Positions 43,481 through 46,333 of a stretch of 64,000 nt of DNA are shown here, piece after piece. Numbering within the stretch: the first letter of the stretch is position 1; each line of letters opens with the position of its first letter. The stretch lies in NCBI GenBank assembly GCA_024508935.1, contig JANINW010000011.1:78255-142254 (forward strand). Reading direction: 5' to 3'. The notes beneath the pieces were generated by a model. That model saw nothing but the letters and a program-made list of their open reading frames with translations, was not told the DNA's origin and did no database searches. This DNA comes from Flavipsychrobacter sp. (GTDB taxonomy: Bacteria > Bacteroidota > Bacteroidia > Chitinophagales > Chitinophagaceae). The position numbers and the translations under genes are program-made.

Positions 43481-44470
43481 TTATTGCTGCTGCAATGCTT
43501 CACGTATCCTGGCTTCTATTTCGGCGGCTACTTCAGGGTTGTCTGCAAGAAATTGTTTTACTGCATCACGGCCCTGGCCAATTTTATTATCGCCGTAGCT
43601 GAACCATGAACCGCTTTTTTGCAGTATACCCAGTTCTACGCCCATATCGATGATCTCACCTACCTTGCTGATACCCTCACCGAAGATAATATCAAATTCT
43701 ACCTGGCGGAAAGGAGGCGCCACTTTATTTTTTACCACTTTTACACGGGTACGGTTACCGCTGGCTACATCACCATCTTTTATCTGGCTTACACGGCGGA
43801 TATCAAGACGTACAGAAGCGTAGAATTTCAGTGCGTTACCACCTGTAGTTGTTTCCGGATTGCCAAACATTACACCTATTTTTTCGCGGAGCTGGTTGAT
43901 GAATATACAGCAGCAACCGGTACGGCTGATAGTGGCTGTGAGTTTACGCAATGCCTGGCTCATTAACCTTGCCTGCAAGCCCATTTTGCTGTCACCCATT
44001 TCACCTTCCAGTTCTCCCTTAGGCACCAGGGCAGCTACAGAGTCTATTACTACAACATCTACTGCTCCTGATGATATCAGGCGGTCGGCTATTTCCAAAC
44101 CTTGTTCACCATAGTCCGGCTGAGAGATGATCAGGTTATCTACATCTACACCCAGTTTGCGGGCATAGCTCGCGTCAAAAGCATGTTCCGCATCTATTAT
44201 GGCGCATATACCGCCTTTTTTCTGTGCTTCTGCAATAGTATGTATAGCTATAGTTGTTTTACCTGAAGATTCGGGGCCGTATATTTCTATGATACGTCCC
44301 ACGGGGAAACCGCCTACGCCCAAGGCTACATCCAGCCCAAGTGAGCCGGTACTTATCACATCTATCTTATCCTGTTGCTTGTCGCCCAGCATCATTACCG
44401 AGCCTTTACCATAATCCTTTTCGATCTTATCCAGTGCTAGTTTCAGCACTTTTAATTTGTCTTCTGCCAT
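43481..44470 (-). CDS. recA: Recombinase RecA
   Basis: A 329-residue RecA, forming ATP-dependent filaments on ssDNA for homologous recombination and SOS co-protease activity. Walker A is G65-PESSGKT-T73; MSQALRKLT and the loop following [10 protein letters not shown]-like [16 protein letters not shown] (L2) mark the DNA-binding region. The ORF track begins at 44530 with 20 codons unlike the family; the ATG at 44470 ([26 protein letters not shown]) is the conserved start. The upstream region carries a prominent inverted repeat. Downstream is a strong terminator. Confidence 0.96.
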
Positions 44471-44522
44471 TTGCTTAAGCTTTTGAAGTGTGTTAAATAT
44501 GATGCTAAGGTAAAACAAGATT

Positions 44523-44571
44523 TTGTACAAATGTGCAAATAGTTATCCACATTTGTATAGCCATTGTACAA
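44523..44571 (-). promoter_or_regulatory. Candidate operator region upstream of recA with a DnaA box
   Basis: Two TTGTACAA palindromes (44523-44530 and 44564-44571) flank a perfect 10-bp inverted repeat TACAAATGTG-N12-CACATTTGTA (44526-44535/44548-44557). An exact DnaA box TTATCCACA lies at 44543-44551. It is 53-101 bp upstream of the recA ATG, where an SOS-type repressor would be expected to bind. The binding protein is inferred, not seen. Confidence 0.6.
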
Positions 44572-44611: not shown

Positions 44612-44640
44612 AAAAAAGCCGCTCAACAAGAGCGGCTTTA
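44612..44640 (-). terminator. Terminator after the dnaB region
   Basis: AAAGCCGCTC/GAGCGGCTTT stem with loop AACAA. The minus strand ends in TTTTTTA. Another copy of the recurring AAAGCCGCT core. Confidence 0.85.
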
Positions 44641-44669: not shown

Positions 44670-45008
44670 TTAAAATGGCGCGTCATCATCTGGCCCGGCT
44701 TGACCCGGAGGAGGCATGCGGAACTGCGATGGTGGCGGAGGCATATCATCATCATCAAAATTATAGTCATTGGCCTTTGATGGCATAGTCTGGAAGCCGC
44801 CGGGGATGAACATTTTCGAACCACCGAATTCACCCGGGTCCCTGCGTATGCCTGCCTGCGGATTATCGCCTGCAGGTTTAAACCCGCCACTGCCGGCGCC
44901 AGGAGGAAACCCGCCGCCACTGCCAAAGCCACCATCGAATCCGAAATTATCGGCAGGAAGGTCTACGAATTTCTGGTATTCTTTTATGAAGCGCACTTTT
45001 ACTGTATC
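44670..45008 (-). pseudogene. dnaB: C-terminal part of dnaB in a different frame
   Basis: Read from 45008 the minus strand gives DTVKVRFIKEYQKFVDLPADNFG, which aligns with the last helicase-core strand of DnaB (GTVRLTF in E. coli). It is then followed by a Gly/Pro-rich tail of about 95 residues ending PGQAGPDDDAPF. The ORF track lists only its last 108 residues as if they were a separate protein starting MRFIKEYQKF. Its frame is offset from the upstream dnaB ORF, which stops at 44999. This makes it the displaced end of the same gene. Confidence 0.85.
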
Positions 45009-46333
45009 GGTACTACCGTTTCTCCCTCAATAGGCTGCCCCATTTCATCATTATTGATACCATAGTATTCCGGGCGGTAGAGGAACATAACCATATCAGC
45101 ATCCTGTTCAATGGCTCCCGATTCACGGAGGTCACTCAACTGCGGCACTTTACTTTCTTTACGGCTTTCTACCGAACGGTTCAACTGCGACAGGGCTATA
45201 ATAGGTATTTCCAGTTCTTTTGCCAGTGCTTTAAGATCGCGTGATATTTTAGATATTTCCTGCTCACGGTTACCTCCTTTGTCTATAGAAGCCTGCATCA
45301 GCTGCAGGTAGTCTATTATAATTAACTGAATATCATGTTTTTGCTTCAGGCGGCGTGCTTTGGCGCGCAGCTCAAAGATGTTCAGGGCCGCCTGGTCATC
45401 CAGGAAGATAGGGGCGGACGCCAGTTTATTCATGCGCTGGGTCATCTGCACAAATTCATGCTCCTGCATACGGCCTTTGGTAATGGCTTCCATGCTTACT
45501 TCCGTTACGGCTGCGAGCATCCTTTTTACCAGCTGTCCCGCACCCATTTCAAGAGAGAAGAAGGCAACCGGGAAAGGCTTGGCACTGTTCATAGATGCAT
45601 TCATGGCCAGGTTAAGACAGAAGGCTGTTTTACCCACCGCAGGACGGGCAGCCAGGATGATAAGATCCGTTTTCTGCCAGCCGGAAGTCAGTTTATCCAA
45701 AGGCACGTAGCCCGATGGAACGCCGGTCAGGTCATCCTTTTTATTTTTGGCTTCTTCTATCTCGTGTACGGTGCGCACCAGTACCTCTTTCAGGCTTTTG
45801 AAGTTCTTACGCAGGTGTTTATCAGTGATCTCGTACAGGTTTGATTCTGCCTTATCCAGCAGGTCGAATACGTCAGTGCTGTCTTCATAGGCATCGCCTA
45901 TTACCTGCCCGGATATGCGTATCAGCTCACGCTGGATGAATTTTTCCATTACAATACGCGCGTGGGCCTCAACGTGGGCACTCGATACTACGCTCATTGT
46001 GAGACGGGTAAGGTAATATGCACCGCCTACTATCTCCAATTCATCTGTTTTGCGTAGTTCTTCAGTCACAGTCAGCAAGTCTACCGGCATACCCTTATCG
46101 AAAAGGCGGCGGATAGCTGCATATATCTTTTGGTTAGCGTCTACATAAAAGCAGTCTGCGCTTTGAATGATCTCCAGTACCTCGGCCAGCTTATCCTTTT
46201 CCAGCATTACGGCACCCAGTACCGCTTCTTCCAGCTCGGGAGCCTGGGGTGGTACCTTGCCATAAACAAGGTTGGTTATATCTGGTTTCCTGCTACGTGT
46301 ATTGCCAAATTCTTTCTTGATGTTTAATGCCAT
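44999..46333 (-). CDS. dnaB: Replicative DNA helicase DnaB, frameshifted near the C-terminus
   Basis: 444 codons of DnaB, the 5'-3' replicative helicase. The N-terminal domain covers APELEEAVLGAVMLEKD...; Walker A is ARPAVGKTAF (about 219-228); Walker B is LIIIDYLQLM; the following SQLNRSVESR and LSDLRESGAIEQDADMVMFLYRPEYY are intact. It then reads ETVVPIQ and stops. In DnaB generally this point continues with roughly IIxGKxRNGPxGTVRL; that KxRNG segment carries the arginine finger. The segment is absent and the rest lies in the next frame (44670-45008). Either a sequence error or a broken gene; see findings. Confidence 0.9.
   Translation of the reverse strand: MALNIKKEFGNTRSRKPDITNLVYGKVPPQAPELEEAVLGAVMLEKDKLAEVLEIIQSADCFYVDANQKIYAAIRRLFDKGMPVDLLTVTEELRKTDELEIVGGAYYLTRLTMSVVSSAHVEAHARIVMEKFIQRELIRISGQVIGDAYEDSTDVFDLLDKAESNLYEITDKHLRKNFKSLKEVLVRTVHEIEEAKNKKDDLTGVPSGYVPLDKLTSGWQKTDLIILAARPAVGKTAFCLNLAMNASMNSAKPFPVAFFSLEMGAGQLVKRMLAAVTEVSMEAITKGRMQEHEFVQMTQRMNKLASAPIFLDDQAALNIFELRAKARRLKQKHDIQLIIIDYLQLMQASIDKGGNREQEISKISRDLKALAKELEIPIIALSQLNRSVESRKESKVPQLSDLRESGAIEQDADMVMFLYRPEYYGINNDEMGQPIEGETVVPIQ

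Follow-up and report, generated by a model that had tools for sequence, protein, structure and literature searches.

LexA boxes change repeatedly in evolution, by a route that is debated; the Gram-positive box is GAAC-N4-GTTC and the cyanobacterial one RGTAC-N3-DGTWC, both of them read by canonical winged-helix LexA proteins. The characterised repressors of other Bacteroidetes are non-canonical LexA proteins, which bind their boxes and have targets induced by mitomycin C (Sanchez-Osuna et al. 2021, PMC8565304). In that paper, the group with the box CTAA-N5-TTAG combines an S24 peptidase carrying Ala-Gly, Ser and Lys residues with an N-terminal DNA-binding domain unrelated to LexA, is autoregulated, and targets recA, imuA-imuB-dnaE2 and dinB. 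The system described here shares these features, with targets (in one relative also parE) and an autoregulation that are predicted from sequence, but its box is different (16 bp, even-symmetric, TTGNACA-WW-TGTNCAA). The diverged, experimentally bound SOS site of Elizabethkingia anophelis, TTAC-AAATT-GTAA, has a similar TAC-AAAT-GTA look, but differs in its odd spacing (5) and belongs to another lineage (Weeksellaceae; PMC8565304).

The window, the whole stretch of 64,000 nucleotides that was analysed, belongs to a 3.76-Mb Chitinophagaceae genome (G000:C11). Both recA and dnaB lie on its minus strand, with a gap of ~200 bp between the dnaB tail and recA, and RecA matches were found in 40 of 41 relatives. 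The features of the region were the following:

43481-44470, minus strand: recA, the putative regulated gene; open reading frame with its ATG at 44470.
44505-44512, minus strand: candidate -7 element TACCTTAG, weak, 7 of 8 positions matching the Bacteroidetes TAnnTTTG, just downstream of the operator.
44523-44538, minus strand: site B, putative main operator, TTGCACATTTGTACAA in recA sense, 53–68 bp upstream of the recA ATG.
44526-44557, unstranded: perfect 10-bp inverted repeat, a product of sites A and B in opposite orientation.
44543-44551, plus strand: perfect DnaA-box-like nonamer TTATCCACA, a conserved neighbour overlapping site A.
44545-44560, minus strand: site A, putative second, weaker operator, CTATACAAATGTGGAT in recA sense, 10.9 bits.
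44564-44571, unstranded: second TTGTACAA, lone and half-site-like, 3.9 bits as a 16-bp site, absent at that position in relatives.
44615-44639: terminator-like hairpin, on the dnaB-tail side of the palindrome stretch.

The original prediction placed one large palindromic operator in this gap, and its reading of the letters was accurate: the stretch is non-coding, between the recA ATG and the dnaB tail with its hairpin; the two identical TTGTACAA palindromes 41 bp apart are located at 44523-44530 and 44564-44571; and the perfect 10-bp inverted repeat with a 12-nt spacer is formed by TACAAATGTG (44526-44535) and CACATTTGTA (44548-44557). The large operator itself did not survive comparison, as the functional unit appears to be a 16-bp pseudo-palindrome in more than one copy, and neither the large palindrome nor the TTGTACAA pairs. 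In the neighbouring gene, dnaB (window 44670-46333) is split by a frameshift with a break near 44990-45035, where the N part ends with GQPIEGETVVPIQ and a stop and the C part continues as NGSTDTVKVRFIKEYQKF in another frame; the probable cause is a short deletion or a fault in the assembly.

The consensus given above was obtained from 15 related recA promoters, namely that of the window genome, those from 12 more genomes of its genus and those from two genomes of a second genus (g68). Across both genera these promoters share a conserved 16-bp pseudo-palindrome, TTGTAC-AAAT-GTNNAA, and a weaker copy, ATACAAATGTGGAT, mostly 22–23 bp upstream. Site B is an exact match to TTGNACAWWTGTNCAA and is kept in all 15 promoters, while site A lies 22 bp from it (centre to centre, upstream in recA sense) and its core ACAAATGT is retained in most relatives, again with a spacing of mostly 22–23 bp. 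The 10-bp inverted repeat arises because the two sites, with their asymmetric AAAT centres, point opposite ways. The relatives also have TATNTTTG ~20 bp downstream of the operator; the recA of the window itself has no clear TAnnTTTG element.

A scoring matrix was trained on the promoters of the repressor gene only, and the recA promoters were held out. Among the 127,970 positions of the 64-kb window, site B ranked first with 21.2 bits, and the next unrelated site reached 13.3 bits. All 15 held-out recA promoters of the two genera scored 17.3–24.3 bits, whereas 96 other recA promoters had a median of 3.0. CTAA-N5-TTAG was distributed the other way, being found before recA in 50 of the 96 promoters outside the two repressor-sharing genera and in 0 of the 15 inside. 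Neither CTAA-N5-TTAG nor GGA-N5-TCC was present in any of the five own-genome promoters tested, and CTAA-N5-TTAG was absent from all four target promoters. The usual CTAA-N5-TTAG box is thus replaced by TTGNACAWWTGTNCAA in this lineage.

Because the 16-bp motif was derived from recA, with one S24 promoter consulted as well, the sites at the error-prone polymerase loci imuA and dinB confirm it independently. When one mismatch was allowed, the motif occurred at 6 sites in the own genome, against 2 for the control. Four of the six lie upstream of recA, imuA-imuB-dnaE2 (L119/L179), dinB (L123) and the S24 repressor gene (L126); of the remaining two, one is intergenic (L124) and one is a chance match within uvrA (L125). 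The proposal to look upstream of lexA, uvrA, dinB and imuB was therefore borne out for a LexA-like S24 gene, imuA-imuB-dnaE2 and dinB, besides recA, and failed for uvrA, upstream of which no site was found in this genome and whose sole near-match sits within the coding sequence. The expected enrichment at other repair genes was found with the refined 16-bp motif, also in related species, and this recurrence supports the further claim that an SOS repressor would act before recA.

Among 15 genus genomes, TTGNACAWWTGTNCAA had 57 exact matches against 4 for the reversed control, a comparison in which the congeneric genomes are not independent of one another. The occurrence of the 16-bp unit upstream of SOS genes is far beyond chance. 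In a tally over site clusters and recA positions, exact sites preceded the S24 repressor gene in 9 genomes, a second S24 gene in 1, imuA in 6, recA in 5, dinB in 2 and parE in 1. The remaining exact sites were mainly before helicase-like AAA_25 genes (9), DUF3987 genes (5), a 111-aa protein (6) and phage terminase small subunits (3).

Several of these loci touch on mobile elements. Operators before AAA_25-HTH helicase-like and DUF3987-HTH genes were seen in one clade of the genus, in some genomes in several copies (L129-L134, L137, L149-L153, L159, L169, L170, L177), and these may be SOS-controlled replication genes that belong to mobile elements. Operators upstream of terminase small subunit genes and of a gene that is RecT-like by eye, with no family match (loci L144, L148, L173, L164), suggest that prophages employ the host SOS repressor. 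The 111-aa protein, preceded by the operator in six genomes (L139, L155, L160, L168, L171, L176), had no match in Pfam, PHROG or NCBIfam and is a candidate new SOS gene. Two other patterns were rejected: TTGNACNNNNGTNCAA without the core was too loose (5 own-genome sites and 3 for the control), and the additional matches of ACAAATGTNYAA were mostly at unrelated genes or within genes, one before rpoD being kept as a lead. At L246 ~1490-1530, a gene that by eye resembles an rpoD-like sigma factor has two operator cores (ACAAATGTTTAATACATTTGTAC) ~130 bp ahead of it.

No canonical LexA was found in the genome; the TIGR00498 model gave only E=0.17, through the S24 part (cut-off 110.95 bits). The genome has two S24 proteins, both with non-LexA N-termini, as in the non-canonical LexA of Bacteroidetes (PMC8565304). 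The lineage-specific SOS site first proposed is thereby supported with a non-canonical repressor as its probable reader. The protein that most likely reads the recA operator, judged from its sequence, is a phage-CI-like repressor of the following gene:

L006:1171-1914, encoded on G000:C93: S24-family repressor gene.

Its S24 peptidase domain matched PF00717 above the cut-off, and the self-cleavage residues Ala-Gly, Ser and Lys (AQAGY, SGDSM, VKRL) were invariant in 14 sequences. The PHROG repressor family phrog_4 covers residues 13-218. Compared with the CTAA-group repressors, the S24 part was 32% identical and the N-terminal domain 16%; an hhalign comparison of the N-terminus with the CTAA-group HTH gave E=0.0024 but a probability of 12%, and L006 lacks the GAYEExRA segment that the CTAA group conserves behind its recognition helix. 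Against Pfam, the N-terminus gave sub-threshold HTH matches only (Xre-like 0.0044, Phage_CI_repr 0.058), and this position below the cut-offs for CI-type HTH domains is a point against the L006 protein as the reader. In the solved-structure search, the profile of the repressor had 0 matches and the N-terminus alone weak HTH matches only. Orthologs of the L006 type occur throughout the genus and in g68. The N-terminus, a putative diverged HTH, occurred in 2 of the 104 genera sampled from the family, where the operator co-occurs; beyond these, the 396 genomes sampled across the phylum gave just weak matches (31–37% identity), all in one other genus. Unlike the CTAA group, the L006-type gene carries its own array of three operators, whose offsets are constant (0/+41/+60) in the second genus and in most genomes of the first; in G004 and G006 the array is further upstream or out of range. 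The repressor is predicted to control its own gene and canonical SOS genes, with predicted sites at its own gene, recA, imuA-imuB-dnaE2 and dinB.

The second S24 protein of the genome is the following:

L005:1420-2196, own genome: second S24 repressor-like protein.

This paralog could be the main reader of the operator, or both could compete for it, as its S24 part is 64% identical to that of L006 and its start is preceded by ACAAATGT cores at distances of 69 and 126 bp. However, its N-terminal half is unrelated to that of L006, its promoter scores just 7.5 bits with the matrix, and a search of other genomes of the genus gave no L005-type protein, whereas the L006 type and the operator co-occur. 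We thus regard a leading or competing role of L005 as improbable.

We consider, at a probability of roughly 0.9, that the element upstream of recA is an SOS operator that would be bound by the L006 repressor and derepressed on DNA damage. A repressor dimer would bind the 16-bp site B, assisted by the weaker site A 22 bp upstream (~two helix turns), and, lying around the -33 region of the recA promoter, would obstruct RNA polymerase; such paired sites suggest cooperative binding as in phage CI. On DNA damage, RecA filaments would lead to cleavage of the repressor at the Ala-Gly bond, for which the catalytic Ser and Lys are present, and this would free recA, the repressor gene itself, imuA-imuB-dnaE2 and dinB. 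We infer the occupancy of site B and the RecA-stimulated self-cleavage because characterised Bacteroidetes repressors behave in this way (PMC8565304); binding by L006, repression and damage induction are likewise proposed by analogy. The same paper also describes recA genes in some Bacteroidetes that are not damage-induced, which counts against the SOS reading. Further points against it are the lack of a clear TAnnTTTG element at the recA of the window and the conserved TGTGGATAAC beside site A.

The nonamer TTATCCACA at 44543-44551 is a putative DnaA site, and the conserved part of the promoter might be this box, with recA tied to replication initiation and the palindromes incidental. It is present exactly in 10 of the 15 recA promoters of the two genera (~0.3% of shuffled promoters match exactly), as part of a conserved TGTGGATAAC that adjoins the weaker operator in most of them (window; L008-L018, L240) and whose conservation is not accounted for by the operator. 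In addition, the recA promoters of three near relatives (L037, L039, L040) carry the related TGTGGATAT without the operator. Nevertheless, the 16-bp operator is kept in more recA promoters than the DnaA box, 15 of 15, it is found again before imuA, dinB and the repressor gene, and the nonamer leaves the palindromes unexplained; in many other Chitinophagaceae, moreover, a similar TGTTGATAA comes immediately after the CTAA box, where it may be a promoter element. Replication control by this box, in place of SOS control by the operator, therefore seems very improbable. Other Chitinophagaceae recA promoters (L023-L028, L061, L065, L069) have CTAA-N5-TTAG, often with TGTTGATAA directly after it, which may be a -33 promoter element; a deep DnaA-box signal across the family was for this reason dropped.

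The inverted repeat on its own is weak evidence, because 1.7 perfect 10-bp repeats (spacer up to 30) are expected by chance per 64 kb of first-order Markov sequence and 18, mostly terminator-like, were observed in the window; the strong signal that had been seen in the palindrome is thus real as a sequence and modest as an argument. TTGTACAA was dropped as a motif, since its 113 copies genome-wide were not enriched over the ~92 expected (base-composition estimate), though pairs at most 60 bp apart occurred 0 times in 60 random 64-kb sequences. While the chance expectation for the repeats and the lack of TTGTACAA enrichment would agree with chance palindromes in an AT-rich spacer, the operator kept in 15 promoters and the enrichment of 57 against 4 refute chance, which we dismiss.

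The system type is known, that of the non-canonical LexA published in 2021, and the box is new: the main text of PMC8565304 does not describe this box, repressor subtype or operator array, and its supplementary tables list further diverged sites. The system is not a plain member of the CTAA-type group, because the defining box was tested and is absent. Its GTAC-N4-GTRC core has the dyad spacing of the Gram-positive and cyanobacterial LexA boxes, in a genome with no canonical LexA found, and this resemblance is probably convergent.

A wider history is conceivable, though we think it unlikely: the SOS box would have switched since the DNA-binding domain of the repressor was replaced or radically remodelled while the S24 half was kept, with L005, which joins a third N-terminus to a very similar S24 half, as a snapshot of this process; the regulon would have gained replication and mobile-element genes, and recA would be co-controlled with DnaA through the embedded box. 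In one genus and its sister genus the box has been exchanged throughout the SOS core, beside a family that retains the published one. Now that the probable partner repressor and its autoregulatory array have been located, the change of box can be tested on repressor and promoter pairs, and SOS genes become predictable in a group of environmental bacteria in which the published motif gives no hits.
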